A DNA stretch of 32,534 nt. It comes from Phycisphaerales bacterium. GTDB taxonomy: Bacteria; Planctomycetota; Phycisphaerae; Phycisphaerales; UBA1924. The translations under genes were made by a program, and so were the position numbers. The notes beneath the pieces are model-generated. The model was not told the origin of the DNA and made no database searches. It saw only the letters and a program-made list of their open reading frames with translations. Location: the NCBI GenBank assembly GCA_028285065.1, contig JANQQG010000147.1:1-32534 (forward strand), given 5' to 3'. Below, in pieces: positions 1,542-20,768 of the stretch (the first letter of the stretch is position 1; each line of letters begins with the position of its first letter).

Positions 1542-1642
1542 GGCGTTGATCTCCGTTCGCCCCCGCGCCCACGAGCGGCCTCCGTCCTGAGGCCATGCGA
1601 CAAGTATCGTCGCGGCGCACAGCGCGCGGGGTAACGACTCTG

Positions 1643-2440
1643 TCACACCCGTCGTGGCATCCACGCGATCGCGTCGATCCGGTCCGCGAACAGCAGGCTC
1701 TCCGGCTCACCCTCAAGCTCGATCCCCAAGAGGCGCGTCATGTCGAGGGTCTGGCACGTCCAGGCCGCCGGGCGCAGCGACCAGTGTTCGTGGTGGATCT
1801 CCGAGCACCAAACGCGCTGGGTCGGTCCGGGCGCGGATGCGGCATACATGCAGTACCGCTCGGTGAGCCAGTGTTCGAGCGACCCGGGCTCGGCGCGGAA
1901 GGCGGGGCCGATGGGGCGGTACCCGCAGGAGAGTTCGGCTGTGGGGTTGCGTTTGTCGGTGCGTGTTGTTTCGTAGACGACGCCGCCGTTGGGTCCGGGG
2001 GCACGGTCGCACGTGATCCGCGCGGTGCAGTAGTTGAGGTGGAAGGCGCGCCGTGCGACTTCGACGGCCAGTCTGTGTGCCGCGTCGAGGCTGAAGAACC
2101 AGACGCCGGTGCGTTGTTGGCCGGAGCGTTCGCGCACGTACGTGCGCACGTTGAGTTCGGGGAATCGTCGTGCGCCGGGGATTGCGGGTGCGAGGCGGTG
2201 TCGGATGCCGCTCATGTGGAAGGGGACGACGCCGACCCAGGCGCTGCGATCGAACGTCTCGAGCTCGAGCGCATCGGGGATGAGCGGGCGGATGGCGTCG
2301 TGGTCGACGCGCCAGTGTGCGAACAGCAGGTCATGCCAGCGCATGAAGACGGACCAGCCATTGCGCGGCGCCGGCCACGGGCGGTGGTCGGTCGAAGCGA
2401 GGATGGAGCGTGCGCTGCTCACGGGGGGAAGGTACCGCAT
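1643..2440 (-). CDS. DUF2071 (YqjF-like) family protein
   Basis: MRWHDLLFAHWRVDHDAIRPLIPDALELETFDRSAWVGVVPFHMSGIR...FPELNVRTYVRERSGQQRTGVWFFSLDA is typical of DUF2071. Confidence 0.85.
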   Translation of the reverse strand: MRYLPPVSSARSILASTDHRPWPAPRNGWSVFMRWHDLLFAHWRVDHDAIRPLIPDALELETFDRSAWVGVVPFHMSGIRHRLAPAIPGARRFPELNVRTYVRERSGQQRTGVWFFSLDAAHRLAVEVARRAFHLNYCTARITCDRAPGPNGGVVYETTRTDKRNPTAELSCGYRPIGPAFRAEPGSLEHWLTERYCMYAASAPGPTQRVWCSEIHHEHWSLRPAAWTCQTLDMTRLLGIELEGEPESLLFADRIDAIAWMPRRV

Positions 2441-2537
2441 GCGGCGGTCGCGCGTGCCTGCTACGTCGCGGCTGTGCGTCCTTGAATCGAAAGAGATAAG
2501 CTGGACACTCGATCAGGGATCGCGGATGTAAGGGAGG

Positions 2538-2996
2538 TTGGCCATGGTGCTGCGAGGGGTTCGAGCGGGCTCGCAGAGTGGGGTTGTCACCGATGAGGTG
2601 CGCAAGATCGCGCGCTACCACCGCGGGCTGAACATCGGAATTCTCCTGATGTTGCTGTCGCTCGGTCTCATCGTGTGCGTGGCGGTCATCGGAAACAACG
2701 CGGACCGAGCGGCTGGCGAGCCCCCGTCGCCTGTTGTGCTTCCACTCATCGCGGGTGCTGCGCTTCTCTACATCGCCGGCGTCATCGGCGGGCTGGTGGA
2801 TGCGATCCGTCTTACCCACGTGATGTCAGAGAGTTCGATCGTCTTGGTGGCGATCGCTGTGATTCTGATCATGGTGTTCATGCCGTGCGGGAACATCCTC
2901 GTCCTGCTCGTGTTGAATCACAGGGCGACGACGCGCCTCCGGGATGCGGGGCTTCGCGTAGGTCTACTCGGTGCAAAGGTGCCGAAGGATGCCTGA
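2538..2996 (+). CDS. Hypothetical membrane protein with several hydrophobic segments
   Basis: Hydrophobic segments NIGILLMLLSLGLIVCVAVIG, VVLPLIAGAALLYIAGVIGGL and SIVLVAIAVILIMVFMPCGNILVLLVLN. Confidence 0.65.
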   Translation: MAMVLRGVRAGSQSGVVTDEVRKIARYHRGLNIGILLMLLSLGLIVCVAVIGNNADRAAGEPPSPVVLPLIAGAALLYIAGVIGGLVDAIRLTHVMSESSIVLVAIAVILIMVFMPCGNILVLLVLNHRATTRLRDAGLRVGLLGAKVPKDA

Positions 2997-2998
2997 CG

Positions 2999-3039
2999 AA
3001 AACGAGGCCGAGAGCTCCCTGATCGGGTTGCTCCCGGCC
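2999..3039. terminator. Candidate terminator between convergent genes (T-tract favours minus-strand transcription)
   Basis: GGCCGAGAGC (3006-3015) pairs with GCTCCCGGCC (3030-3039), one mismatch in 10, plus an inner CCC/GGG; AAAA at 2999-3002 gives a U-run on the minus transcript. Confidence 0.55.
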
Positions 3040-3092
3040 CCTTGAGACGAGTGCCGTTGTCATCCGTGTCGTTGTGCTGGCGAGCTCGTCGG

Positions 3093-4241
3093 CTAGACGG
3101 CCGGTCCGCGCCGTCCCGCACCGTGGCTGGCGGGGGTGGCGGGGGGCTGGCCATCGAAGGAGCGGAAGCCGGCTCCGTCCGGCCCGGGCTGGCCCGGACC
3201 GAACGGGCCGGGGCCGAAGCTGTCTGCATCGAAGTTGAAGCCCTGGGGTCCGCGGGGACCGCGCGGGGTCTGGGGACGCTGGTTGCGTTGGAAGCCTTCG
3301 CGCTGGCCGCGCTGTGCGTTCCCGCGCTGCGGCGCCATGCCTCGCTGTCCGCGCTGCATGTTCCCGCGTTGCCCGCGCTGGATGTTGCCGCGCTGGGGCG
3401 CCATGCCGCGCTGGCCGCGTTGCATGCGCTGGGTGCCGCGCTGGGCCTGGCCGCGTGCGCCGGGGCGCTGGGCTTGTCCACGTGCGCCAGGTCGCTGTCC
3501 GCGTGCGCCCTGGTCGGCGCCCTGGCGGAGACGCTGGATGAAGGCGCGCCGGCGCTCGGGGTCCATGTTGCTCAGGCGCTCGCGGAGCGCCTGGCGGGCC
3601 TCGGGGCTCGCGTTGCGGATGCGCTCGCGGAGGTTGTCCGCTTGTGGCGCTCGTGAGGCCTGCGGGCGGCGTGCGCCGTCGCGCTGCTGCCCGCTGGGGG
3701 CGCGCCGCGCCTCGGGCTGGTTGCCGCCGCGGAGGCGCTCGGCGAATGCGCGCCGATCCTCGGGGCCGGCATTACGGAGGCGCTCGATCATGGCGCGGCG
3801 TTGCTCGGGGGTGGCGTTCTCGAGGCGCTCGCGGAGGCCGCTGCGGATGCCCTCACCGGCGCGCTCGCCCTGACCACGCCGAGCGCTCGGCTGCGGACGC
3901 TCTCCTCTGCGCTCGTTCATTGCCTCGGGTCCACCGGGGAAGCCGCCGCGCTCGGCCGGCCGGCGCATGAAGGACTCGCGATCGCGCTGCTGGCGGTCGA
4001 TGTCTGCGCCGGGTTGCGCGCGTCGACCCTCGCGGGCCTCGGCGCCGCGCTGGCGTTCGCCGGCTCGGTTGAGTCGCTCGATGAGCTGTGCACGATCTTC
4101 CTCCGAGAGTTGCGAGAGGAGTTCAGCGATCTGTCGCTGAGGTGTTGCGTCGCGTTCGGCGCCGCGCTGGGCGAGGGCCGTGGTGCTGCCCGCGCCGAGC
4201 ACGAGCGCACCGATGCCGATCGTCATGAGACGGGTGTTCAT
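3093..4241 (-). CDS. Exported Arg/Gln/Gly-rich repeat protein of unknown function
   Basis: Signal peptide MNTRLMTIGIGALVLGAGSTTALAQ; approx. 15-aa helical repeats (LENATPEQRRAMIER/LRNAGPEDRRAFAER; IRNASPEARQALRER/LSNMDPERRRAFIQR) then RG-rich repeats (MQRGQRGMAPQRGNIQRGQRGN...). Confidence 0.7.
   Translation of the reverse strand: MNTRLMTIGIGALVLGAGSTTALAQRGAERDATPQRQIAELLSQLSEEDRAQLIERLNRAGERQRGAEAREGRRAQPGADIDRQQRDRESFMRRPAERGGFPGGPEAMNERRGERPQPSARRGQGERAGEGIRSGLRERLENATPEQRRAMIERLRNAGPEDRRAFAERLRGGNQPEARRAPSGQQRDGARRPQASRAPQADNLRERIRNASPEARQALRERLSNMDPERRRAFIQRLRQGADQGARGQRPGARGQAQRPGARGQAQRGTQRMQRGQRGMAPQRGNIQRGQRGNMQRGQRGMAPQRGNAQRGQREGFQRNQRPQTPRGPRGPQGFNFDADSFGPGPFGPGQPGPDGAGFRSFDGQPPATPASHGAGRRGPAV
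3280..3500. repeat. Imperfect tandem repeats encoding the RG/RGQRG-rich region
   Basis: Recurring cgctg(c/g)ggcgccatgcc(t/g)cgctg-type units on the plus strand correspond to (M/N)QRGQRGMAPQRGN repeats on the minus strand. Confidence 0.65.
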
Positions 4242-4374
4242 TTCACACTCCTGCGTTGGTGTCGTCTGCCCCTTCGGTCTTCCGCTCGCGGCGACAACGC
4301 AGCCGTGCGCATCCAAGACCGTTTCCATTCCATTCGGTGAGCCGAACGCGGGGGCGTGGGGCTGATTGCAGGCG

Positions 4375-4572
4375 TTACTCGCTCTTCCTCATGACGAGTT
4401 CGAGATCGAGGATCTCCATGAGCTTCTCGAGCTCCGTGGAGGTCAGCGTGCGCTGCCCGTAGACGAACTTTTTCAGGACGTCCTCGCGCATGCCGGATTC
4501 GGCGGCGAGTTCTTCCAAGGACATGCGTCGGTGGATCGTCGCTTGTTGGATGGCCTTGCCGAGACTTGCCAC
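4375..4572 (-). CDS. Small XRE-like helix-turn-helix protein (65 aa, GTG start)
   Basis: VASLGKAIQQATIHRRMSLEELAAESGMREDVLKKFVYGQRTLTSTELEKLMEILDLELVMRKSE resembles a single HTH_XRE domain; the longer ORF up to 4920 overlaps another gene. Confidence 0.65.
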   Translation of the reverse strand: MASLGKAIQQATIHRRMSLEELAAESGMREDVLKKFVYGQRTLTSTELEKLMEILDLELVMRKSE

Positions 4573-4693
4573 TGCCGTCCCTCGAAACGCCCGGAGGAGG
4601 TGCCGGGACGCTCTCCCGGCTGGTGAAGAGTAATCGGGCGTTGGACGCACCGCCTGTGACAAAGTGGGGACCCAAGCGAGGGAGGGGTCCGAC

Positions 4694-6773: not shown

Positions 6774-8032
6774 TGCCCCTTGCCCACCTGTTCATCGCGG
6801 GCGCATTGCTCGCTCAGCCCCAGCCTGGCGACCCCGCGGCCGATCTGCTGGCGCCGCCCGTGGAGACGCCCGACGCCCGTGCGCCCGAGTTGCTGAACTT
6901 CGAGGTGCGCCGAGGCTACCAGGTCACGCTCGGCGTCGCGTTCATCCCGGGCGCACGCTTCATGTGCTTCGACGACGACGGCGCGTTGTACGTCTCGCGC
7001 CCGTCGTACTCGGATGTGCTGCGGTTGACCGACGAGGATGACGACGGGGAGTACGAGTCGCGCACGGTGTTCGCCACGGGACTTCCGACGGTTCAGGCGA
7101 TCCAGTTCGAGGGAGGGGCCCTGTGGATGGCCGCGACCGGGTCGATCCACCGCGCGACCGACGCGGACGGTGATGGGGTTGCGGACGAAGTCGCCGACGT
7201 GCTCGAGGTCGGCACGCTCCCGCGCGAGGGCGTCAACCACGAGCGAGCGCTGCTGGTCAAGGGCGAGCAGTTCTACACGGTGATCGGTGATGGCTCGAAC
7301 ATCTCCGATCAGTCGTCGACGGAGCGTCAGGCGATCTGGCGGTACAACGCCGACGCCTCTCGCAAGGCGCGCTACGCCGGCGGCATCCGCAACTGCGTCG
7401 AGCTCAGGTTCCGGCCAGGTTCGAGCGAGATCTGGGGTTTCGACGAGGCGCCCACCGGCATCGGCTGGTCCTACGGAGAGCAGCCCGGGTCCGGTGCGCA
7501 GTCGCAGCCGATCGGGAGCGTCCAGGCGCCGGATGAGTTGAACTGGTACCGGCCACAGCGGACCTATGGGCATCCGCACGTGATCGGCGCGAGGGTGCCG
7601 CACCCCGAGTACGCGGACGACGAGAACATCGGCCAGAAGCTCGCAACGAGCGAGCCGCCGGAGTTCCTCCTGCCGGCGCACTCGTGCCCCGGCGGGTTCG
7701 ACTTCCTTCCGGCGGAGCTCGCCGGCGAGGGCAAGGGGATGCCGGCGGATCATGCCGGTGACGCGTTCGTCGCGCTGCGCGGGCGCAGTCCGCTCCCCGG
7801 CTTCCCGATGGAGACGTTCGAGGCCGGCTACAGCGTCGCACGCGTGCTCTTCGACGGCGATGAGCCCTACGGCATGCTGGAACTCGTGCGCACGCGCGAC
7901 GCGCAGTCCGATGGTGGACGCATGTGGGCACGCCCCGTAGACGTCGTCACGGCTCCCGATGGCTCGCTTCTGTTCTCGAGCGAACTGCCCACCGGGCGGA
8001 TCTACCGGATCCGTTGGGTGGGCAACGAGTAG
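6773..8032 (+). CDS. PQQ-dependent sugar dehydrogenase-like beta-propeller protein, secreted
   Basis: VAFIPGARFMCFDDDGALYVSRPSYSDVLRLTDEDDDG...HSCPGGFDFLPAEL...GDAFVALRGRSPLPGF...VVTAPDGSLLFSSELPTGRIYRIRW; overlaps the upstream stop (TGATG). Confidence 0.75.
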   Translation: MPLAHLFIAGALLAQPQPGDPAADLLAPPVETPDARAPELLNFEVRRGYQVTLGVAFIPGARFMCFDDDGALYVSRPSYSDVLRLTDEDDDGEYESRTVFATGLPTVQAIQFEGGALWMAATGSIHRATDADGDGVADEVADVLEVGTLPREGVNHERALLVKGEQFYTVIGDGSNISDQSSTERQAIWRYNADASRKARYAGGIRNCVELRFRPGSSEIWGFDEAPTGIGWSYGEQPGSGAQSQPIGSVQAPDELNWYRPQRTYGHPHVIGARVPHPEYADDENIGQKLATSEPPEFLLPAHSCPGGFDFLPAELAGEGKGMPADHAGDAFVALRGRSPLPGFPMETFEAGYSVARVLFDGDEPYGMLELVRTRDAQSDGGRMWARPVDVVTAPDGSLLFSSELPTGRIYRIRWVGNE

Positions 8033-8288
8033 CCCGGGCGATGCTGTCGGGCGGGTCTCGGAGCACGTAGCTGAGGCGTTTGCTGAGCTCGGTCCGGTTG
8101 CGTTCGTTCGTTGCGGCGGATCGTCCCACTGTTTTTGGGGAGGCGTCTGAGCCGGCAGAGACGCTGGGCGGAATCCCCGGATCGGCTGAAGGGGAGGATC
8201 GTGCGGGTCGATACCGGACGCGAGCCCCCGTCGTCCCGATTGGTCGGGCGTGCGGGCCCCGTGTGCTCAGGCAGGGGCGTCCGACGCG

Positions 8289-8747
8289 ATGAGCGAAAAA
8301 CCACGCGAACTGGTGGTGCGCCAGCATGAGCGGTACCGGTGTGATCTGCCGGCCAAGCTCGAGCTGTGCTCCGACGACGCCGAGCGCGTCATGCTCTCCG
8401 GCCAGGCGACCGGCGCGGACGGGCGGATCGAGGCGCGACTCGAGGATGCCTCGGTCGGCGGCTTCGGCGTCCGTACCAAGGTCTTCCTCCCCAAGGGCGC
8501 CCGCGTGCTCGTCTCAATCCAGGTCGGCGAGCAGGGCGACGGCGACGACGCGTCCCCGGTCGAGCTGCGCGTCAGAGGGCGCGTCCAGCGCGCCAAGATG
8601 GTCGAACGCGGGCCGCTGTACTACCTCGGCATGGCGGCCGACGCGAGCGAGGACGCACACCAGCTGTCTCTCGAGGTGCTGCTGGCGCACGTGCGCGATC
8701 TGTGGGTGGAGGAGCAGCGTCAGGCGGAGGGGGGCGCGAGTGCTTGA
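8289..8747 (+). CDS. PilZ domain protein (putative c-di-GMP receptor)
   Basis: RxxxR motif RQHER and [DN]xSxxG motif DASVGGFG, the two halves of the PilZ c-di-GMP signature. Confidence 0.85.
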   Translation: MSEKPRELVVRQHERYRCDLPAKLELCSDDAERVMLSGQATGADGRIEARLEDASVGGFGVRTKVFLPKGARVLVSIQVGEQGDGDDASPVELRVRGRVQRAKMVERGPLYYLGMAADASEDAHQLSLEVLLAHVRDLWVEEQRQAEGGASA

Positions 8748-10446
8748 CTACGACGACTTCGTGACCGCCGCGATGCTCGAAGAGGGCGTCATCGACGCCG
8801 AGACGCACGAGCGTGCCACGCGCATGGCGACCGAGCGCGGCAAGCCGGTGCTCGAGGTGATCGTCAGCGAGGGGCTTGCGTCCGTCCGCGACGTCGCGCT
8901 CGTTCGCGCGGGGATCAGCGAGTGCCCATTCGTCGATCTCTCGCACTACGAGATCGACCTGAAGAACGCTCACCTCGTGCAGCGCAGTGTGGCCGAGCGC
9001 CACCGCGCGTTCCCGTTGTTCGTCTTCGACGAGCACGCCACGCTGGGCATGGCCGATCCGCTCGACCTCCGGGCGGTGGACCAGCTCCGATCGATCCTGC
9101 GCCGTGACATCGAGCCCGTGCTCTGTGAAGAGGAAGCACTGGCCGGCCTGATCTCGAGGGCCTACTCGATGGTCGGCGGCGAGGGCGACCAGGGCGCGAC
9201 CCCGACGGGGTTCGAGGCGATCGACCTGACGACCGGCGAGGAGCCGATCGTCGCGGCCGTGAACCAGATCCTGGCGCAGGCCGCGGAAGAGGGCGCTTCG
9301 GACATTCACATCGGGCCCGACGAGCGCGACCTGCATCTGCGCCTGCGCGTGGACGGCACGCTGCGCCGGCGTCAGGGACCGCCCCTGAGTGCGCACGCCG
9401 GCATCGTGCAGCGCCTCAAGGTCATGGCGAACCTCGATCTGACGCAGACCCGGCGCCCGCAGGACGGCAAGTTCCGCTACACGCATGCCGGGCGCAAGGT
9501 GGACTGCCGCCTCAGTGTCATCCCGACGGTGTACGGCGAGAACGTCGTGATCCGCCTGCTCTCGTCGGCCGCGACGATCGGCTCGTTCGACAACCTGGGT
9601 TTCCCGGCTTCCGAGTTGGCGACGTTCCAGAAGATGCTCGAGCAGCCCCACGGGATGATCCTGGTGACCGGCCCGACGGGGAGCGGCAAGACGACGACGC
9701 TGTACACGGGCCTGAAGCGCCTGAACTCGCCGGACGTGAACATCATGACCATCGAGGACCCGGTCGAGATCCGGCTCCCGATGATCCGCCAGGTGCAGGC
9801 CAACCCGGAAGTCGGGCTGACCTTCGCGGGCGCTCTGCGCTCGATCCTCCGGCAGGACCCTGACGTGGTGCTCGTCGGCGAGATCCGCGACGAGGAGACC
9901 GCTCGCATCGCGCTGCAGGCCGCGCTGACGGGGCACCTGGTGCTCTCGACGCTGCATACGAACGATGCGCCCGGTGCCGTGGCGCGACTGCGCGACTTTG
10001 GTTGCCCCCCGTTCGCGATCAACGGCGCGCTGCTCGGCGTGCTGGCCCAGCGTTTGGTTCGTCGCTCGTGCGAGTCGTGCGCTCGTCCTTACCGCCCCGA
10101 GGCGTCGATGCTGGAGCGCTTCGGTCTCGAGCAGGCGGACGCCAAGTGGACGCGCGGCGCGGGGTGTGCACGCTGCCTGACGACCGGCTATCGCGGACGC
10201 GTCGGGATCTACGAGTTGCTCGAGATGACGCGTGGCGTGCAGCGCTGCGTCGAAGCGGGCGCTTCCACGGAGACCGTGCGTGATCAGGCCGTCGCCGACG
10301 GGATGAAGCTCATGCACGCCGATGGCGTCGAGAAGGCCCGCATGGGCCTGACCACCCTCGAGGAGGTCGCGCGTGTCGCGGCCGTGCAGGCTGTCGAGCC
10401 CGATGAGGGCGCTGATGGTCAGGTGGAGGCATCGCGGGCTGCATGA
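8740..10446 (+). CDS. gspE: Type II secretion/type IV pilus assembly ATPase (GspE/PilB family)
   Basis: GTG start overlapping PilZ by 8 bp; Walker A GPTGSGKTTTLYTGL, Walker B DPDVVLVGEIRDEETA, tetracysteine CESC...CARC. Confidence 0.95.
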   Translation: MLDYDDFVTAAMLEEGVIDAETHERATRMATERGKPVLEVIVSEGLASVRDVALVRAGISECPFVDLSHYEIDLKNAHLVQRSVAERHRAFPLFVFDEHATLGMADPLDLRAVDQLRSILRRDIEPVLCEEEALAGLISRAYSMVGGEGDQGATPTGFEAIDLTTGEEPIVAAVNQILAQAAEEGASDIHIGPDERDLHLRLRVDGTLRRRQGPPLSAHAGIVQRLKVMANLDLTQTRRPQDGKFRYTHAGRKVDCRLSVIPTVYGENVVIRLLSSAATIGSFDNLGFPASELATFQKMLEQPHGMILVTGPTGSGKTTTLYTGLKRLNSPDVNIMTIEDPVEIRLPMIRQVQANPEVGLTFAGALRSILRQDPDVVLVGEIRDEETARIALQAALTGHLVLSTLHTNDAPGAVARLRDFGCPPFAINGALLGVLAQRLVRRSCESCARPYRPEASMLERFGLEQADAKWTRGAGCARCLTTGYRGRVGIYELLEMTRGVQRCVEAGASTETVRDQAVADGMKLMHADGVEKARMGLTTLEEVARVAAVQAVEPDEGADGQVEASRAA

Positions 10447-11654
10447 GCACGCTGGACTTCCAGTACGTTGCGGTTGACCGCAGCGGTGCCAAGCACCGCG
10501 GGACGGAGCGTGGCGCGACGCGCGAGGACGTGTGCCGCAAGCTTGCTCGTATCGGCTTGACGCCGCTGGACGTGCGAGAGCGCAAGGGCGGCGCCGGCGG
10601 GAAGAAGCGTCGTCGCAAGCGTGTACGCGGTCGCGACGTGGCGCACTTCACGTATCAGTTCAGCGTGCTGGTCGATGCGCGGATCCCGCTCTCCGAGGGT
10701 CTGATGAGCATCGCGGAGCAGGAGACCAACGAGACGCTCAAGGGCGTTCTCGAAGACGTCGCCCTGCGGATCGAATCGGGCGAGTCGGTCGCCCAGGCGC
10801 TCGGGGCGCACGAACGGGTCTTCGGGAGTGTGTACGTCGAGACGGTCCGCGCGGCCGAGACGTCGGGCACGATGTCCAAGGTCCTCGAGCACCTCTCTGA
10901 GATGCTCGAGCGGACGGAGGAGACGAGCTCGCAGATCCGCTCGGCCCTGATGTACCCGGCCTGTGTGGTCGGCGTGCTCTCGCTGGGCGTGACGTTCCTG
11001 ATCGGCTTCGTGATCCCGCGCTTCGCGACGATGTTCGAGGAGCGGGGGGTCGACTTGCCGGCGTTGACCAGGGTCATGATGGGGCTCGGTGAGTCCGTCC
11101 AGGGTTTCTGGTGGGCGTACCTCGCCGGGCTTGTCGGGCTCGTGTTCGGCGCTCGCGCGATGTGGAACAACCCACGCGGGCGGCTGATCGTCGACGGGTG
11201 GCTGCACCGCGTTCCGGTCGTGCGCTCGATCCTGATCGGGCTTGCGATCAGCCGGTTCAGCCGCGTCTTCGGGATCACCGTGGGCTCGGGTCTGAGCCTG
11301 ATCGACGCGATCGGCTTGAGCGGTCGTGCGTCGGGTCGACCCACGCTGATGGCGGACTCGGAGCGGATGGCCGCCCAGGTCCGGTCCGGCGGTCGTCTCG
11401 CGGGGGTGCTCGGCTCGTGCACGTACCTGACGCCCTTCGCCAGGCGGATGCTCTCCGCTGGCGAGGAGTCTGCGGAGCTTGGTCGGATGTGCTCGATCGT
11501 GGCTCGCCACTACGAGCGTGAGACGACACGTCAGGCGAAGAACATCGCGACGGTTATCGAACCCGTGATGGTGGTGTTGATCGCGCTGGTCGTACTGGTT
11601 GTTGCACTGAGCATCTTCCTGCCAATGTGGAACATGGTGACGCTGATGCAGTGA
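10443..11654 (+). CDS. gspF: Type II secretion inner-membrane platform protein (GspF/PilC)
   Basis: FQYVAVDRSGAKHRGTERG...VAHFTYQFSVLVDARIPLSEGL...SALMYPACVV...IEPVMVVLIALVVLVVALSIFLPMWNMVTLMQ; ATGA overlap with gspE. Confidence 0.95.
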   Translation: MSTLDFQYVAVDRSGAKHRGTERGATREDVCRKLARIGLTPLDVRERKGGAGGKKRRRKRVRGRDVAHFTYQFSVLVDARIPLSEGLMSIAEQETNETLKGVLEDVALRIESGESVAQALGAHERVFGSVYVETVRAAETSGTMSKVLEHLSEMLERTEETSSQIRSALMYPACVVGVLSLGVTFLIGFVIPRFATMFEERGVDLPALTRVMMGLGESVQGFWWAYLAGLVGLVFGARAMWNNPRGRLIVDGWLHRVPVVRSILIGLAISRFSRVFGITVGSGLSLIDAIGLSGRASGRPTLMADSERMAAQVRSGGRLAGVLGSCTYLTPFARRMLSAGEESAELGRMCSIVARHYERETTRQAKNIATVIEPVMVVLIALVVLVVALSIFLPMWNMVTLMQ

Positions 11655-11755: not shown

Positions 11756-12232
11756 ATGACTGGTAAGAAGACCATGAAGCGGGCGTTCACGCTGATCGAG
11801 CTGATCGCCGTGATCGTTGTGCTCGCGATTCTCTCCGGCGTGGCGCTCCCGCGCTACTTCGACTACGCCGATCGCGCCAAGACCTCCGCCGTCCAGGGCG
11901 CTCTTGGCAACGTCCGCGCAGGCATCGCGAACTTCTACGCCAACTCGGCGATCGAGGGCAGCGCGGCCTACCCGACCGCCGCCGAGCTCGCCGCCGTCGG
12001 CAGCGTGATGCAGGAGGGCATGCCCGCCAACCCGTACAACGATCTGAAGACGATCCGCGCGATCGCGTCGCTTGCCGACGCGCAGAACCGCGTGACCGAC
12101 GGGACCACCGGCTGGTGCTACTACGTGGACAACACCGCCACGCCTCCGGTCGCCATCCTCTACGCCAACGACACCACCGAGACCAAGGTCTCCGATGGTT
12201 CGGGCGGCTTCGAGCAGGCCAACGAGCTCTGA
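11756..12232 (+). CDS. gspG: Type II secretion major pseudopilin-like protein (GspG-like)
   Basis: Class III signal [57 protein letters not shown]. Confidence 0.9.
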
Positions 12233-12270: not shown

Positions 12271-12816
12271 ATGCAACCACGCACACCGCCACGCCGGGCG
12301 CTCGCAAACGCCCGGCGTGGTTTCTCTTTGGCCGAGCTGGTCGCGATCATGGTCATCATCGGCATCACCGCCGGCGTGATGGTCAGCGTCACGATGCGAC
12401 TCGACGGCGCCCGCGCGGGCGCCGCCGCCGGGAGGATCGAGTCGGACGTGGCCTTCGCGCGCCACTGGGCGCTGGCGACCGGGACACGAACGTGGGTCGA
12501 GTTCGACCTGCCGGCCCAGAGCTGGCGCGTGCTCACCGAGGACCCGGCCGCCCCTGGCAGGGCCGGTGCGACCCCGCTCGATGATCCGGGCACCGGCAAG
12601 GCGCTCGGCGGCCAGGTCGGACGCGGTGCCTTCGTCGGGGTCACGCTCGACTCGGCCCTCTTCGGTGCCGATCCCGTCGTTGGCTTCGATTGGCTCGGGC
12701 GTCCCCTTGACGCCTCGGCCAGCCCGCTCGGTGCGGACGGGAGCGTCGTGCTCGGTTCGGGCACGACGATCAGCGTGCAGGTCTCCACTGGCCACGTCAG
12801 CCGCAGCACGCCATAG
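12271..12816 (+). CDS. Minor pseudopilin (GspH-like)
   Basis: MQPRTPPRRALANARRG|FSLAELVAIMVIIGITAGVMVSVTMRLDGARAGAAAGRIESDVAFARHWALATG...; operon position 2 of pseudopilins. Confidence 0.85.
   Translation: MQPRTPPRRALANARRGFSLAELVAIMVIIGITAGVMVSVTMRLDGARAGAAAGRIESDVAFARHWALATGTRTWVEFDLPAQSWRVLTEDPAAPGRAGATPLDDPGTGKALGGQVGRGAFVGVTLDSALFGADPVVGFDWLGRPLDASASPLGADGSVVLGSGTTISVQVSTGHVSRSTP
12289..12329 (+). terminator. Intrinsic-terminator-like hairpin inside the 5' end of the GspH-like gene
   Basis: CCACGCCGGGCG(12289-12300)-CTCGCAAA-CGCCCGGCGTGG(12309-12320), perfect 12-bp stem, followed immediately by TTTCTCTTT. Confidence 0.7.
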
Positions 12817-12839: not shown

Positions 12840-13286
12840 ATGGCTCGTCCGCGACGCATCCCGACTGACCGATCCGTGCGCAGCGCGTTCAGCCTGGCCG
12901 AGCTGGTCATCGCGCTCGTGGTGTTGACCATCGCGACGCCGGCGATGCTGACCGCCCTACGCGACTCGCAGGTGCGCCAGATCGATCCGGTCCTCGCGTC
13001 GCGCGCTCGCTGGCTCGCGGTCAGCAAGCTTGAGGACGTGATCGCGGACCGCCACTCGGCGACGCGCGGGTGGGACCACCTCGTCGGCGCGAACTACCGC
13101 GACGAGGCGCCCGTCGCGGGCTACGACGACTTCGAGCGCCGCGTCACACTGAACGAGACCGGTCCTGACCTGGCCACCGCCGGTGACGGGTACATGAGTG
13201 TGACCGTCGAGGTGAGTTGGTTCGACGTCGGCGGGACCGCCCGTTCGCTCTCGGTCTCCACCGTGGTGACGGAGTATGGACCATGA
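12840..13286 (+). CDS. Minor pseudopilin (GspI-like)
   Basis: MARPRRIPTDRSVRSA|FSLAELVIALVVLTIATPAMLTALRDSQVRQ. Confidence 0.8.
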   Translation: MARPRRIPTDRSVRSAFSLAELVIALVVLTIATPAMLTALRDSQVRQIDPVLASRARWLAVSKLEDVIADRHSATRGWDHLVGANYRDEAPVAGYDDFERRVTLNETGPDLATAGDGYMSVTVEVSWFDVGGTARSLSVSTVVTEYGP

Positions 13287-13852
13287 AGCGCGCGGCACGG
13301 AGCGCCCAGCGCAGGGGCTTCACGCTCGTCGAGGCCATCGCCTCGATCGTGGTTGTGTCGATCCTCGGCTCGGTCGTGTCGGGTCTGATTCTCCAGGCCG
13401 CCGACGCGCACGCAGGATCCAGCGTCCAGGCCGATCTGCACGCGGAGGCCTCGGCCGCCCTGGACAGGCTGGTGCGCGAGATTCGCCGGATCGACCCGGA
13501 CCCGGACGCGCCGGCGGGCGAGCCTGCGGCCGACGTTGACCGCCTGACCGCGACGTCGATCGAGTGGGCCGGCGACAGCGTTGCGCGCCTCGACGGGACG
13601 GAGCTGATCCTCTCGATCGCGGGCGAGGGTGACGGGGTGCTCGCGACGGACGTGAGCGCCCTCGAGATCATCGCCTACGACGATTCGAATGCGCAGCTTG
13701 GCACAAGCATCTCCGGGGACGGGACGCGCCAGATCCGGCGCGTCGAGATCCGGCTCACGCTCGAGCGTGCCGGCGCCTCAGAGACCATCGAGGCCAAGGT
13801 CTACCTACGTGGTGCGATGGCGGGGACGACTGCCGCGGGGGCGGGACCATGA
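13283..13852 (+). CDS. Minor pseudopilin (GspJ-like)
   Basis: MKRAARSAQRRG|FTLVEAIASIVVVSILGSVVSGLILQAADAHAGSSVQADLHAEASAALDRLVREIRRID; ATGA overlap with upstream gene. Confidence 0.85.
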   Translation: MKRAARSAQRRGFTLVEAIASIVVVSILGSVVSGLILQAADAHAGSSVQADLHAEASAALDRLVREIRRIDPDPDAPAGEPAADVDRLTATSIEWAGDSVARLDGTELILSIAGEGDGVLATDVSALEIIAYDDSNAQLGTSISGDGTRQIRRVEIRLTLERAGASETIEAKVYLRGAMAGTTAAGAGP

Positions 13853-14721
13853 GGCGCGCAGACACCAATCCGAACGCGGAGCGCGGCGGCGCAGCGGTTG
13901 CCGTGCTTGTTGCGCTCGTGCTGTTGCAGCTCGCAGTCGTCGGCGTCGTCGTGTCCGGCGGGCGCGAGACCACGCTGACGGCGCGCCGACTCGAGACTGT
14001 CCGCTCGTTCTACGCGGCCGAGGCGGGCGTGAACATGGCAATCCGCGAGTTGAGCGTGGGCGCGGACGAGGACGCCGACGGGGGGATCGGATCGATCTCC
14101 GATGACTCCGACGACTCCACCGACCCCTTGCTGGCCGGCGCGCGCGTGCGCGTCGAGATGACAGACGAGTCCGACGGCTCGACGTTGCTTGCCAGCATCG
14201 GCAGGCAGGGCGACGCGACGCGGCGCATCGAGGCGTCACTCGCCGGTGGGGGAGGCGGCGCAGGCGGGATGGGGAGCGGGCCGGCCGTCGTCGCGGGCCT
14301 CGCGGCCTCCTGGTTCTACGAGAGCTCCACTATCCAGCAGCTCAACGATATCGACTGGTCGAGCACCCCCGACGTCATGACCGTCGAGGCCGATATCGAC
14401 TGGAACAACTCGGGGTGGCCGCGCGACAGCTACCTCGGGCTCGAGCTCAACGGATGGGTCGACGTACCGGCAGGTGGGACGTGGACGTTCTCCCTCGCCT
14501 CGGACGATGGCTCGGCGCTCTGGATCAACGGGGTCGAGGTCGTCAACAACGATGGGCTGCATTCGGTGCGGACCAGGAGCGGCACGGCTGATCTCGCGGC
14601 CGGACGCCACGCGATCCGTGTTCGGTTCTTTGAGAACACGGGGGCGGCCGTGCTCATCCTGGGTTGGAGCGGGCCCGGACAGAGTTACCAAACGGTCCCG
14701 GAGGGTGTCCTGTGGCACTGA
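13849..14721 (+). CDS. PilX/GspK-like minor pseudopilin fused to a C-terminal PA14 domain
   Basis: N-terminus ERGGAAVAVLVALVLLQLAVVGVVVSGGRETTLTARRLETVRSFYAAEAGVNMAIREL; linker GGGGGAGGMGSG; then PA14-like GLAASWFYE...YLGLELNGWVDVPAGGTWTFSLASDDGSALWINGVEVVNNDGLHS...AGRHAIRVRFFENTGAAVLILGWSGPG. Confidence 0.85.
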   Translation: MRRADTNPNAERGGAAVAVLVALVLLQLAVVGVVVSGGRETTLTARRLETVRSFYAAEAGVNMAIRELSVGADEDADGGIGSISDDSDDSTDPLLAGARVRVEMTDESDGSTLLASIGRQGDATRRIEASLAGGGGGAGGMGSGPAVVAGLAASWFYESSTIQQLNDIDWSSTPDVMTVEADIDWNNSGWPRDSYLGLELNGWVDVPAGGTWTFSLASDDGSALWINGVEVVNNDGLHSVRTRSGTADLAAGRHAIRVRFFENTGAAVLILGWSGPGQSYQTVPEGVLWH

Positions 14722-17700
14722 CACGAGCGATGTGGATCCTGGCATGCGTCCTCACTCTCGCGCCCCTGAGCGCGTGGGGCCAGACCACCTACTACGTGCG
14801 CACCAGCGGGGACGACGACGATGACGGCCTGACGCCCGCAACGGCGTTCGAGACCATCGAGGAGGCCGCGGATCACGCGGGCCCCGGCGACACGATCTAC
14901 GTCGGTGGCGGCACGTACAGCGACGAGATCAAGCTCAAGGAACTAAAGGGGACGTCCGCCAGTCCGATCCGCTTCGTCGCGGACACGACCGGAGCCCAGA
15001 CGGGCGACTCGGGCACGGTGCGCTTCCGCGACGACGACGGCCTCCTGCTGCTCGAGGACTGCGACCACCTCATCTTCACCGGCTTCGTCTTTGATGGTGA
15101 CGACGGCGATTCGGTCATCGAGCTCAAGAACGACAGCACCGGGGTCGTCTTCTCGGGGTGCAGCATCGAAGACAGCGACAAGGCGCTGCTCGAGCTCGAC
15201 GACAACAGCGAGGTCGAGCTCCGCGAGTGCACGCTCGACGACTCCGACGCCGACGCGATCGAGGTCAAGAAGTCGACGCTCACGATCATCGGCGGCGTGA
15301 TCACCCGGGTGGACGACCGCGCCATCGATGTCGACGACGAAGAGTCCGTCCTCGTCCTCCGGGGCGTCACGTTCGAGGACGTCGGCGCCGGCGTGCGCCT
15401 CAAGAAGGGGACGGCCGAGGCGACCAACTGCTTGATGCGCAACGTCGGCGGCGATGCGTTCGACTGCGACGACGACAAGGTGAGGCTCACCGTCTGGCAT
15501 TGCACGCTCGTCGACGTCGACGGGGACGGGATCGATGCCGAGAAGGGCGTCGTGGCGCTCCACAACACGATCATGTCCGACGTCAATCGTTACGGCGTCC
15601 GGATCGATGACGCGACCCTGACGCACTCCCACAACATCTTCCACGATGTCAGCTCCGGGGCCTTCCGGGGCGGGCCCTCGCTGCACTCAAGCGAGTCGAC
15701 GGCCGACCCGCTCTTCGCGGCCTCGGACAACGCGCGTCTGACGTCCACCTCGCCCGCGATCGACGCCGGCGCGGACGCTTCGCTGGTCACGAGCGTCGAT
15801 CTCGACGGGGCGGCGCGCCCGGACGGCTCCGGTTACGACATCGGCTGCTACGAGTCGTCGGACGGGCTGGTCGCTGCCCCAACGCCCTACCACAACGACT
15901 TCGAGGGGACGATCGGGGCCGAATGGTCCAGCCCACCCGTCAGCAGCGACGGCGATCTCTCGACGTTCCTCGGCAGGCTCTGGGACGAGACGGACTACAC
16001 CCTGCGGGTCACGGTGGAGCCCGGCGAGACCTATTCGTTGCTGCTGAGCATGTACATCTTCGAGGGCTGGGAGGGGGACGGGAGCAACGTCGACTGGGTC
16101 ACGATCACCGTCGACGGCGCACAGGTCTTCCGCGAGAGTTTCGATCAGCAGGCGTCACCGCAGACCTACCCGAAGCAGCCGGACCGTATGGGCAACTTCG
16201 CGTTCTCGAGCGGGTCCGACTCGGTCTACGACTGGGTGCGCATCGACTTCGTTGCGCCCGACTCGGTCGTCGACATCGTCTTCAACGCCGACGTGAGCTA
16301 CGCGTCCGGTGAGTGGTGGGGGATCGACAACGTTCACGTGCTCAAGGAAGCCGACGCCGACCTGATCCTGCCGATCTACTCGGACATCTCCGGTGCCGTG
16401 TCGTTCAACGTTCAGGCAACCGGCGGGCTCGACGATTGTGGCAGCCCGCTCTGGTCGGACATCGACGCGGACGGCGACCTCGACGTGTTCATCACGGGGC
16501 GGACCGCGCGGAATGGACTCCAGAGCCTCGGCGGCTCGTTCACGTGGCAGTCCATGGGATCGGTGCGGGGCCAGGGCGCGGTCGGCGACGTAACCGGCGA
16601 CGGCGCGCCCGACATCTGGACCGCGCGCACCGGATCGAGCGACGGAGAGAGCCTCTTCATCAACGACGGGACCGGTGTCTTCTCGGGCGCCGGCGACCTC
16701 GGGATGATCGCGGCGACCGGCAACGGAGCGACGGCGTTGATCGACGCGGACGCCGACGGGCGTCTCGATGTCTTCATGGCCAGTGGCAACGGCAACTGGG
16801 TCGGGTACGCCCGGTCCGGAAGCCCGATCACGCTCGAGCCCAGCAACGATCCGTCACTGATCCCCAACGCCGGCACGGATCTCGGGCGCGGTGGCGGCAT
16901 GTCCGTCGCGCACCTCAACGACGATCGCACCCCCGACATGCTCATCCACGCGCCCGTCAGCGGTGTGCTCGCCTCCACGGAGGTCGAGGTCGATGGCGAG
17001 GACGTGCCCGCCTTCGAGCGCGACCTGCGGAGCCTCAGCGCAGGCGTCTCCTCCACGCCCACGGGCTCGGCGTGGGGCGACTACGACAACGACGGCGACG
17101 CGGATGTGTTCATCGCCGGGGCGAGCTCCTCCGACCCGGGGCGCTTGCTGCGCAACGACGATGGGACGTTCGTGGACGTGACCGATGCCGCCGGCATCGA
17201 CGTCGATGGCGTGCAGCGCAGCTGCGCGTGGGGGGATATGGACAACGACGGGGACCTGGACCTGTACGTCGTGACGGGGTCGGGTTCGGACAACGTCCTC
17301 TACCGCAACAACGGGGACACGACGTTCTCGGCGGGCGACCTCGGTGCCGGTCTGAGCGGCGATTATGTCGACGCGGTCTTCGTCGACTACGACGCCGACG
17401 GGGATGCGGACCTGTCGGTCGTGCCGGCGTCGGGGACGGCCGTCCTGCTCGAGAACCGCACCGACGATGGGCGGGGGATGATGGTGCGTCTTGTGGGCGC
17501 GGGGCACGGCGGGACCAACCCGTCGGGCGTGGGCGTGCGCGTGGAGCTGTACAACGCGGACGCCAGCCAGCTGCTGCAGTTCCGGGACCTCGGGGCCGCC
17601 CGCGGGTTCGGCTGCGAGCCGCTGTGGGCGCATTTCGGCGGGGTCGAGCCTGGGACGAGCTATGTGGTCCGTGCCCACTTCTTGTCTGGGACGGTCTCGT

Positions 17701-17822
17701 CGCAGGTGGATCCGGCGAGCGTGTCGAGCACGATCGGCTCGCGGATCGTCTCGGGCCTGCTCACGATCGAGGAGCCGGACGCGGCCCTCCGGGTGGTGCG
17801 CTGGCGTGAAGCCGCGCCCTGA
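14712..17822 (+). CDS. Large secreted protein: DUF1565/right-handed beta-helix + jelly-roll-like region + FG-GAP/VCBS repeats + ASPIC/UnbV-like C-terminus
   Basis: Signal peptide MWILACVLTLAPLSAWGQ; TTYYVRTSGDDDDDGLTPATAFETIEEAADHAGPGDTIYVGGGTY; FG-GAP motifs (WGDYDNDGDADVFIAG, WGDMDNDGDLDLYVVTG, VDYDADGDADLSVV); ASPIC-like NPSGVGVRVELYNADASQLLQFRDLGAARGFGCEPLWAHFGGVEPGTSYVVRAHFLSG. GTG at 14712 overlaps the upstream stop; ATG at 14730 is an alternative start. Confidence 0.85.
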   Translation: MALTRAMWILACVLTLAPLSAWGQTTYYVRTSGDDDDDGLTPATAFETIEEAADHAGPGDTIYVGGGTYSDEIKLKELKGTSASPIRFVADTTGAQTGDSGTVRFRDDDGLLLLEDCDHLIFTGFVFDGDDGDSVIELKNDSTGVVFSGCSIEDSDKALLELDDNSEVELRECTLDDSDADAIEVKKSTLTIIGGVITRVDDRAIDVDDEESVLVLRGVTFEDVGAGVRLKKGTAEATNCLMRNVGGDAFDCDDDKVRLTVWHCTLVDVDGDGIDAEKGVVALHNTIMSDVNRYGVRIDDATLTHSHNIFHDVSSGAFRGGPSLHSSESTADPLFAASDNARLTSTSPAIDAGADASLVTSVDLDGAARPDGSGYDIGCYESSDGLVAAPTPYHNDFEGTIGAEWSSPPVSSDGDLSTFLGRLWDETDYTLRVTVEPGETYSLLLSMYIFEGWEGDGSNVDWVTITVDGAQVFRESFDQQASPQTYPKQPDRMGNFAFSSGSDSVYDWVRIDFVAPDSVVDIVFNADVSYASGEWWGIDNVHVLKEADADLILPIYSDISGAVSFNVQATGGLDDCGSPLWSDIDADGDLDVFITGRTARNGLQSLGGSFTWQSMGSVRGQGAVGDVTGDGAPDIWTARTGSSDGESLFINDGTGVFSGAGDLGMIAATGNGATALIDADADGRLDVFMASGNGNWVGYARSGSPITLEPSNDPSLIPNAGTDLGRGGGMSVAHLNDDRTPDMLIHAPVSGVLASTEVEVDGEDVPAFERDLRSLSAGVSSTPTGSAWGDYDNDGDADVFIAGASSSDPGRLLRNDDGTFVDVTDAAGIDVDGVQRSCAWGDMDNDGDLDLYVVTGSGSDNVLYRNNGDTTFSAGDLGAGLSGDYVDAVFVDYDADGDADLSVVPASGTAVLLENRTDDGRGMMVRLVGAGHGGTNPSGVGVRVELYNADASQLLQFRDLGAARGFGCEPLWAHFGGVEPGTSYVVRAHFLSGTVSSQVDPASVSSTIGSRIVSGLLTIEEPDAALRVVRWREAAP

Positions 17823-17950: not shown

Positions 17951-19615
17951 GTGCGCAAGCTCGTGATCATCGAGATCAGCCCGACCCGCCTGGAACTTGG
18001 CGTGGTGATCGGTTCGCGTATCGAGACCTCGCGTATCGCGCGCTTCGCGCGCGATGACGCTGAGGACCTGACGGCACAGCTCGCTCGTGCTGAGTCCATG
18101 CTCGGTGGCTGGGTCGAGGAGCTCTCGCTCGCTGGACGCGCCGCCGGGTGCGTCTACCGCAGCGATGAGTGCCACGCCTCCGTGACCTCCTGTCCCGTCA
18201 GCGCTGGACGCGCGGGGGCGATGGGGGCGGCCAGGCTCAGCGTCGGCGAGGGCGTGAGCTTCGCGGTCGACCAGAGCCCGCTGGCGTTGGACATCCTGAT
18301 GACCGACGCGCCCTCCAAGGAGGAGGGGGACGCCGGGGCGCGCCAGATGCACACGCTCGGCGTCGCCGACAGCGAGGGCGTCGTCGGCGAGGTGCTCTCG
18401 ATGCTCGAGCGTGTGGGGCTCAAGGCCATGTGGTGCGCGCCCGCTCTGGGCGTGCAGATGATCGAGGCCGTCCGCGCCGCCAACCAGGGCGGTGCTGGAC
18501 GCCAGGTCGCGATGTGCATCTGGGAGGAGGAGACGGTCCTCGCCGGCTCCGTCGACGGCGCGCTCAAGTTCGTCCGAACGATCGGCATCGGGACCGAGTC
18601 GCTGGTCGCCGCCTGTGCGCAGATCGCGCCCCAGGGCGAGCCGGAGGATGCCCAGCAGTGGGCCCGCCAGTTGCTCTTCGGGCAGGGGATCCCGGATCGC
18701 GACGTCACCGTCGACGAGGAGTTCGCCATTCGCGGTGGGCAGGTGCTCGCCCGCGTCTCGCCCCTGCTCCAGCGCCTCGGCGTTGAGATGAAGCAGTCCG
18801 TGCGGTTTGGGCTGGGCGACGGCCCCACGCCGACCGTCAACATCACCGGCTTCGGGCGCGCAATCCCACACCTCGACGAGGTCGTCGGCGAGGCGTGCGA
18901 CTGCACACTCGAGAGCGCCGAGACGGATCAGCCGGGCGGCGCCGAGCCGACCAGCGCCGAGGTCGGAGCGATCAACGCGTTCGCCGAGGGGCGCGGGCTC
19001 AAGAGCACGTTCGTGACCAAGGTCAAGGACCGCGCCCGCGGCATCAAGCGCGTGCGCCAGGCCACCTGGTTCGGCGTTGGGCTCGCGCTGCTGGTGATGG
19101 GCTACGAGTACGCGGATGCCGGCATGCAGCTCAAGGAGGTGCATGCCAAACTCGCCACGCTCGGCGAGGTGCACGCCGAGGGCACCGGCGCGGGTGACCT
19201 GCGCGACCAGGTGGTCTCCGGTTCGGCCGGCGTCAATGCCGCCCGCAAGGAGATGACCGATGCGATGGGCGAGTGCATCGATACCGGGGCGGTGCTGTTC
19301 GCGCTCTCGGAAGCGACGCCTCAGGAGATCCGCTTGCAGTCGATCAACATCAGCGACGCGAGCCAGAGCGCGACGTGCATCGTGCGCGGGCTGGTCGCTG
19401 GTGACGCGAACGAGGCGAGCGAGATGATCACGTCGTACTTCGACGCACTCCAGGGCTTGCCCCTGGTCGAGCGCGTCCGTCTTGGGACGACCGGACGCCA
19501 GATGGTCGACGGGCGCGAGGGGCGACGGTTTGAGATGACGGTCGACCTTGTGCGCATGCCGCCGCGTGTCCTGGCCGGTCTGATCGACGGCGCCGAGGGG
19601 GAGGAGCAGCCATGA
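17951..19615 (+). CDS. GspL-like PilM-PilN fusion (actin-like cytoplasmic part + TM + periplasmic domain)
   Basis: MRKLVIIEISPTRLELGVVIGSRIETSRIARFAR (PilM-like N-terminus, GTG start); TM ATWFGVGLALLVMGYEYADAGMQLKEVHAKL; C-terminal PilN-like LFALSEATPQEIRLQSINISDASQSATCIVRGLV...FDALQGLPLVERVRLG. Confidence 0.75.
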   Translation: MRKLVIIEISPTRLELGVVIGSRIETSRIARFARDDAEDLTAQLARAESMLGGWVEELSLAGRAAGCVYRSDECHASVTSCPVSAGRAGAMGAARLSVGEGVSFAVDQSPLALDILMTDAPSKEEGDAGARQMHTLGVADSEGVVGEVLSMLERVGLKAMWCAPALGVQMIEAVRAANQGGAGRQVAMCIWEEETVLAGSVDGALKFVRTIGIGTESLVAACAQIAPQGEPEDAQQWARQLLFGQGIPDRDVTVDEEFAIRGGQVLARVSPLLQRLGVEMKQSVRFGLGDGPTPTVNITGFGRAIPHLDEVVGEACDCTLESAETDQPGGAEPTSAEVGAINAFAEGRGLKSTFVTKVKDRARGIKRVRQATWFGVGLALLVMGYEYADAGMQLKEVHAKLATLGEVHAEGTGAGDLRDQVVSGSAGVNAARKEMTDAMGECIDTGAVLFALSEATPQEIRLQSINISDASQSATCIVRGLVAGDANEASEMITSYFDALQGLPLVERVRLGTTGRQMVDGREGRRFEMTVDLVRMPPRVLAGLIDGAEGEEQP

Positions 19616-20232
19616 GCCAGCCGGACGCCCCACGCTCGATGCTCGCCGAGGGCGTGATCGCCCTTGCGGTCTGCGTCGGTGCGTACATGCTCGGCCTCGA
19701 GCCCGCTCAGCGCGAGCTCGCGGAGGCCCGGGCGGCCATCGAGCAGCGCGAGAGCACGGCCGCCGAGCAGGAGCGCTTCAGGGAGATCCTCCCGCGCCTG
19801 AGCTCGCGCCTCGAGAGCGTGCGTCAGACCGGCGAGCGCATCGACAGCGCGAGCGAGCCCGCGCGTGACCAGGGACGTCTCTACGCCGACCTCTCCCGTC
19901 TCGCCTTCGAGCACGACGTCCGCCTCGACAGGCTCAACCCGGTCGGCGCGAGCGGCATCAACGACGGCGGGCGCACGATGAGCGTCGGCTACGACCTGGC
20001 CGTCGTCGGTATGTACGCCGACCTGATCGGCTTCCTGCAGGCGCTCGAGTCCGATGCGGGCTTTACGCGCGTTCGCTCCGTGACCGCGACGCCCGTGATG
20101 GATCCCTCCCAGGAGGCGGTCCTGGCGCTGATCCGCACCGAGCACTTCGCCTTCGACCCATCGCCGGTGCCCATCGAGGCGCTCCTGGCGGCCGAGGGCG
20201 ACCCGAACGCCCCGGCGGAGGGCATCCATTGA
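19612..20232 (+). CDS. PilO/GspM-like pilus assembly protein
   Basis: Single N-terminal TM, coiled coil LEPAQRELAEARAAIEQRESTAAEQERFREILPRLSSRLESV and ferredoxin-like C-terminus YDLAVVGMYADLIGFLQALESDAGFTRVRSV; ATGA overlap with the upstream gene. Confidence 0.75.
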   Translation: MSQPDAPRSMLAEGVIALAVCVGAYMLGLEPAQRELAEARAAIEQRESTAAEQERFREILPRLSSRLESVRQTGERIDSASEPARDQGRLYADLSRLAFEHDVRLDRLNPVGASGINDGGRTMSVGYDLAVVGMYADLIGFLQALESDAGFTRVRSVTATPVMDPSQEAVLALIRTEHFAFDPSPVPIEALLAAEGDPNAPAEGIH

Positions 20233-20768
20233 TCAACGATCCCTCGACACGCCGTCGCATGATCCAGATCGGCGCGCTCGTCACGCCGGTGGTGGTCGTG
20301 CAGGTCGCTCGCGTCATGCTCGGCGCCGGGCCGGCCGTCGCGCCGGCTGCGACCGACGCGGGCGCACAGGGGATGAACTCGCCGGAGATGATCGCGGCCC
20401 TGGACGACCCGTCGATCCAGACGACCGACGCGCAGCAGGCCGCCCGGCAGTGGTGCGCCTCGCTCGACTTCGATGCGATGATCCTCTCGCCGTTGGACCA
20501 CCCGGACCCCGTCGGCGATGAGGGCCCGGTGGAACCCGGTGTCGATCCGATCGACCTTGGGCCCGAATCGGCGCCCCGGTTGGTGCTGACGGCAGTCGTC
20601 GCGGGCTCGAACGGCGCGGTGGCGTTCATCGAGGGGCGTGTGTTCCGCGTCGGAGACGAGGTCGCGCCGGGCTGGAGCGTCGAGTCGATCGACGCTCGGA
20701 GCCGGCGTGTCGTGATCGTGGGTGAGGGGGACGCAGAGATCGTCCTGACGCCCGATCTCGAGCGCTAA
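20229..20768 (+). CDS. PilP/GspC-like protein (TTG start)
   Basis: N-terminal hydrophobic segment and C-terminal beta domain PRLVLTAVVAGSNGAVAFIEGRVFRVGDEVAPGWSVESIDARSRRVVIVGEGDAEIVL resembling the GspC HR/PilP domain; TTGA overlap with upstream stop. Confidence 0.7.
   Translation: MINDPSTRRRMIQIGALVTPVVVVQVARVMLGAGPAVAPAATDAGAQGMNSPEMIAALDDPSIQTTDAQQAARQWCASLDFDAMILSPLDHPDPVGDEGPVEPGVDPIDLGPESAPRLVLTAVVAGSNGAVAFIEGRVFRVGDEVAPGWSVESIDARSRRVVIVGEGDAEIVLTPDLER

Follow-up and report, generated by a model that had tools for sequence, protein, structure and literature searches.

Modular type IV pilins such as PilB and PilC of S. sanguinis carry a functional module, probably exposed at the filament tip, on a pilin stem (PMC8179133). 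PA14 domains on IPR012902 stems are among the 15 commonest architectures of this class, and GspK is mentioned as modular by the same authors (Raynaud et al, 2021; PMC8179133). A related arrangement is found in PilY1–minor pilin tip complexes and in CofB/CofJ, where a separate secreted adhesin is placed on the tip minor pilins (discussed in PMC8179133).

Here we analysed a stretch of 32,534 nucleotides from a Phycisphaerales bacterium (the window; contig JANQQG010000147.1 of assembly GCA_028285065.1), in which a pseudopilin stem is joined to a PA14 domain. The preliminary description of this locus knew of no system with such an architecture. That statement is not supported: PA14 modular pilins are reported by Raynaud et al (2021; PMC8179133), albeit with N_methyl-type stems, and thus the stem–PA14 fusion itself is of an already known kind. 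In a literature search of partial coverage, no publication was found that describes PA14 or payload exchange for a planctomycete subunit in the GspK position, nor any account of the slot reported below, whose exchangeable payloads are supplied in cis or in trans and share a tail.

The window contains the T2SS gene order H-I-J-K-L within a longer conserved operon, PilZ-E-F-G-H-I-J-K-[slot]-L-M-C, with the PA14-bearing subunit in the K position (Table 1). This order recurs in relatives and the J-K-L synteny is conserved, supporting the earlier placement of the subunit beside GspI/J-like genes. A J homologue was found at 54 of 62 K loci examined, directly upstream of K in most of those shown. At the other eight loci none was seen beside K; two of these lie on short contigs and six outside a recognizable E-J operon (G365, G018, G520, G482, G438 and L006). 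The operon opens with a PilZ protein, hinting that the filament is under c-di-GMP control; RxxxR and DxSxxG motifs are present in this protein.

Table 1. Positions of the operon genes and of the parts of K and its neighbour within the window.
Feature	Position	Strand	Basis
PilZ-domain protein, first conserved operon gene	8292–8747	+	Pfam PilZ E 1.1e-7; kept in relatives
GspE/PilB-type ATPase (E)	8740–10446	+	Pfam T2SSE E 2.4e-127, MshEN E 3.8e-19
GspF-type platform protein (F)	10443–11654	+	Pfam T2SSF E 1.9e-47
Major pseudopilin (G)	11756–12232	+	N_methyl E 4.8e-6
Minor pseudopilin (H)	12271–12816	+	GspH-like TIGR01708 E 2.6e-7, below its cut-off
Minor pseudopilin (I)	12840–13286	+	XpsI-like E 8e-4; position
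Minor pseudopilin (J), 4-nt overlap with K	13283–13852	+	N_methyl E 1.5e-5; position
K subunit: pseudopilin stem, Gly hinge and PA14	13849–14721	+	Frame, Pfam, stem alignment, synteny
Hydrophobic N-terminal helix of K after putative prepilin-peptidase site (ERG^GAAV), without Glu5	13888–13962	+	Sequence, alignment
Conserved EF-hand-like Asp loop of the stem, DEDADGGIGSISDD, residues 73–86	14065–14106	+	Invariant Asp/Gly, 15 sequences
Gly-rich hinge between stem and PA14, GGGGGAGGMGSG, residues 133–144	14245–14280	+	Sequence
PA14 domain, residues 150–285	14296–14703	+	Pfam
Secreted right-handed β-helix/choice-of-anchor-Q/FG-GAP protein, K-L slot	14712–17822	+	Profile matches; slot homologues
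C-terminal tail LRVVRWREAAP, common to payloads of relatives	17787–17819	+	Tail comparison
GspL/PilM+PilN-like (L)	17951–19615	+	Weak PilN E 0.008; synteny
GspM/PilO-like (M)	19612–20232	+	T2SSM E 7e-5, GspM_XpsM E 2e-6, both under cut-offs
GspC/PilP-like	20229–20768	+	Weak T2SSC E 0.005; synteny

The open frame of K was checked and, as first described, is uninterrupted and encodes 290 residues. Its stem reads MRRADTNPNAERG^GAAVAVLVALVLLQLAVVGVVV...FYAAEAGVNMAIREL. An AlphaFold model computed from an alignment with one relative reached a pLDDT of 44 and showed a helix at residues 8–69, three strands at 99–131 and an otherwise β-rich remainder. The acidic stretch taken at first for a linker turned out to be a conserved loop of the stem itself (the Asp loop of Table 1), and the Gly-rich hinge alone connects stem and PA14.

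The stem was characterized by aligning approximately 130 residues from 15 sequences (the window and 14 other planctomycete proteins). Eleven positions are invariant (Y55, R66, E67, D73, D75, D77, G78, G81, P93, A98 and R125), and the loop has the consensus DEDGDGxIGSIS. An EF-hand profile weakly matches three of the 15 stems; with Ser at its twelfth position, the loop departs from the canonical EF-hand, and its Asp residues would form a putative calcium site. GspK/PilX-type subunits are expected to show neither an N_methyl match nor Glu5. A Pfam search of the window K returned no match to N_methyl (PF07963), to the T2SSK alpha-domain (PF21687/PF03934) or, anywhere in the stem, to PilX_N (PF14341) or any other family, and a search of the stem profile against the PDB gave nothing significant (best E 0.18). 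PilX_N did match five of the 15 aligned stems (best E 9.5e-5), and the stem profile matched the N-termini of canonical T2SS GspK proteins of the same class, with per-genome E-values of 2.7e-10 (G294) and 2.7e-8 (G416). Each of these gspK genes shares an operon with E, F and G, and the G416 protein is confirmed by Pfam as T2SSK_1st/T2SSK. Judged by sequence, the stem is GspK/PilX-like, lacks the GspK alpha-domain and has PA14 added at its C-terminus. The PilX/GspK-type stem of the preliminary description is upheld by the profile matches to canonical GspK and by the five relatives that match PilX_N; of the HMM hits sought in 13849–14721, PA14 was found, but PilX_N and T2SSK were not matched in the window protein itself. 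Likewise, PA14 had been thought to take the place of the GspK globular domain: the alpha-domain is indeed absent, but PA14 follows a short stem that is itself complete and does not replace any part of it.

The PA14 domain is complete, as had been claimed. PF07691 matches the window K with an E-value of 2.3e-15 and 57.1 bits against a cut-off of 24, covering profile positions 4–145 of 147, and in a search of the whole genome this protein gave the best PA14 match (58.8 bits). The closest solved structures are the RsgI3 PA14 dyads (6qe7, 6qdi), with lectin PA14s more distant. Calcium in MpPA14 is bound by a DcisD pair, Asp110–Asp111, and ligand by the loop-11 residues Gln156, Gly157 and Asp159 (PMC8092209). 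Asp219–Asp220 of the window domain (14503–14508) align with this pair, which is kept in 10 of 13 K-PA14 domains, the window included, and lost in three. The sugar contacts are only partly kept, the residues at the three loop-11 columns being Asn263, Thr and Ala266; Asn at the Gln156 column may still coordinate calcium. Binding of a sugar (glycan) by the K PA14 is plausible from the match of Asp219–Asp220 to the lectin calcium site. A free tree of PA14 domains groups that of the window with non-K PA14s (support 98/93), but an AU test did not reject a single clade of all K-PA14 domains (p 0.20), so that a recapture of PA14 by the window K is a possible but not a required reading. The nearest PA14 in the tree (47% identity) belongs to a G077 protein (L014/L165, − strand, 7863–11249) that appears by eye to have a pilin-like stem, followed by PA14 and LamG, and is encoded outside recognized E/F operons.

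Intact stem–PA14 proteins number 13, of which 12, the window K included, belong to the window's family and one to another family of the order. Among the 12 other genomes, 11 also have DUF7305 (PF23981; for G046 verified with Pfam) in this protein, while G017 is PA14-only like the window. A second stem–PA14–DUF7305 gene in G470 (L112, − strand, 1206–3295) is distributed over two frames; its contig also encodes a stem-only K system. K proteins of relatives carry PA14 with DUF7305, a repeat domain or no payload. The repeat domain consists of WxG repeats, is called propeller-like on our own reading, has no Pfam match (tested for G062) and occurs on four K proteins. It is fused to K in G062; in G028 and G438 the same domain is a separate signal-peptide gene beside a stem-only K. 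The repeat-domain gene of G006 (L077, + strand, 9347–10849), which ends in the tail RRVVEWNEVDPR, lies in the K-L gap in the opposite orientation, which makes the slot look like a cassette. Beta-helix genes occupy the K-L slot in the window, G017, G014 (two genes), G028, G071, G075, G067, G063 and G458, and follow K in G472 and L006, where L was not seen; both PA14-only K genes (window and G017) adjoin a separate β-helix gene. Mapped on an E+F tree of 49 loci, slot content changed at least 11 times, and payload presence alone at least five times. Within one subclade of the family (L137–L149, e.g. G005, G023 and G379), the 13 sampled K proteins have neither the Asp loop nor a payload. A separate protein near the stem-only K of L006 (10514–11410) resembles, by eye, a fibro-slime (PA14-like) domain. 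Payloads of the same kind occur as K fusions in some genomes and as neighbouring genes in others, and payloads have been exchanged between relatives.

The slot gene of the window encodes a 1036-residue protein with a signal peptide; its GTG start codon lies within the 3′ end of K and is preceded closely by GGAGG. The protein very likely belongs to the same device as K. Separate payloads end in a tail of the type hydrophobic-xx-W-x-E (LRVVRWREAAP in the window, KLVSWTEIEP in G014, RRIVSWTEVEPN in G028 and TIERWSEIEPR in G017), which is missing from the K proteins of the window and G017 and present on their β-helix neighbours. A regular expression written after the tails had been seen matched 14 of 15 ORFs for separate payloads, 10 of 18 K proteins with a fused payload and one of 29 stem-only K proteins, along with 1/455 core proteins and 26/2032 other long frames. 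The sole stem-only match, in G031 (L120, − strand, 4029–4607), is a stem with a short extension that ends in QIQVSGWEEIP and carries no payload. Searched strictly as W-x-E-x-x-P-stop, the motif ends a long frame of this genome only at 17802–17822, and no further protein with this form of the tail was found. PilX_N-DUF7305 pilins and canonical GspK proteins of related genomes have somewhat similar end strands (VVRWEEI, ILEYREE), from which we propose that the tail could act in trans as the final strand of a pilin-like fold. An anchoring role would also fit choice-of-anchor-Q, which is by name linked to varied anchors.

Taken together, we consider it fairly probable that K is a tip pseudopilin presenting exchangeable payloads, which probably bind a target. 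An assembly or annotation artefact that joined two genes is negligible as an alternative: the draft genome is fragmented (262 contigs), but K is one uninterrupted frame, and stem–PA14 homologues occur in 12 other genomes. Full-length relatives are 39–48% identical to the window K, so that the fusion cannot stem from an assembly join. The preliminary description had named absence from all relatives as a sign of assembly error; the fusion does recur, and assembly error was rejected as its source. The locus might also encode an ordinary modular pilin in which PA14 binds no ligand and serves only as a spacer or structural domain, the genes next to K being passengers with no relation to it. The partial conservation of sugar contacts, the loss of the Asp pair in some K-PA14 domains and the K proteins without payload would fit such a pilin, whereas the recurrence of the same domain class fused or adjacent to K across genomes and the tail common to payloads argue against it, and we regard it as quite improbable.

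The operon could instead encode a secretion machine, whose periplasmic K-PA14 tip would recognize cargo, with the β-helix/FG-GAP protein as cargo and the tail as secretion signal. Consistent with this, the gene content is T2SS-like, signal-peptide, cargo-like proteins adjoin K, the tail is restricted to payload ends, and a secretin is found within outgroup operons (in family f8, a secretin and additional operon genes lie downstream of a stem-only K). However, in many relatives the payload is a covalent part of K and could not be released. Moreover, contig C54 of this genome encodes a separate canonical-type GspK (438 aa) together with a secretin. The genome also has 14 matches to the T2SSE family, of which about ten are long, indicating that the window operon is one of several type IV filament systems and not the sole T2SS. 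A secretion machine is unlikely, if less so than a pilin with a non-binding spacer. Neither the window operon nor those of its family contain a secretin, and the secretins of this genome are unlinked to the window; exit of the filament to the surface would consequently depend on an unlinked secretin. This weighs against the tip-pseudopilin reading, as do the changed loop-11 residues, the three K-PA14 domains that lost the Asp pair, the eight K loci without a J homologue and the low pLDDT of the model.

According to the tip-pseudopilin model, a Phycisphaerae-type planctomycete would have a second type IV filament machine, T2SS-like in kind, with K as the minor pseudopilin in its K position. As its family and gene position suggest, the minimal pilin stem would be processed, join I and J and cap the filament. 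PA14 would hang from this cap through the flexible Gly hinge and bind an extracellular ligand, most likely a glycan, while the β-helix/FG-GAP protein would form a second part of the cap, its tail probably docking on K in trans. A more specific version is only tentative: the K-L interval may be the payload slot of a surface-displayed T2SS-like pilus, with a constant tip pilin and exchangeable binding modules, fused or in trans, the latter attaching by a conserved C-terminal β-strand tail that completes the K pilin fold (a split pilin). The relatives in marine planctomycetes suggest a pilus with exchangeable tips, and payloads that are fused or separate and share a common tail offer a directly testable way by which bacteria might exchange them. 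Dextran-gold has been localized to pili-like fibres at crateriform structures of Planctomycetia, and in the passages of that study drawn on here neither a fibre protein nor a binding part is named (Boedeker et al, 2017; PMC5394234). With its PA14-bearing putative tip subunit, the conserved operon could be a specific candidate for the dextran-binding part; since that study used Planctomycetia, the connection to a Phycisphaerae-type operon such as this one is no more than a speculative lead.

Compared with the known systems, the window K resembles modular type IV pilins in combining a pilin stem with a non-pilin functional domain, but those have IPR012902 (N_methyl) stems, whereas K has a GspK/PilX-type stem, lies in a T2SS-like operon and belongs to a system whose payloads also come from neighbouring genes. 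K shares with T2SS GspK (PF21687/PF03934) the position after I and J, stem homology and the lack of a Glu5/methylation motif; unlike it, K has no alpha-domain (HHH/T2SSK) and carries a C-terminal PA14, and a canonical-type GspK is found elsewhere in the genome. The link to PilX_N-DUF7305 pilins runs through the relatives of K, which are stem–PA14–DUF7305 proteins, and through a similar C-terminal end (VVRWEEI in the PilX_N-DUF7305 pilin of G354), whereas the window K lacks DUF7305 and its PA14 is terminal. The PA14 domain is alike in sequence to those of MpPA14 (PMC8092209) and the RsgI3 dyads (6qe7, 6qdi), with the Asp–Asp pair as in MpPA14, but its loop-11 residues differ and its carrier is a pilin. 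Finally, the separate payloads, β-helix or repeat proteins with a shared tail, are comparable in arrangement to the adhesins of PilY1 complexes and CofB/CofJ.
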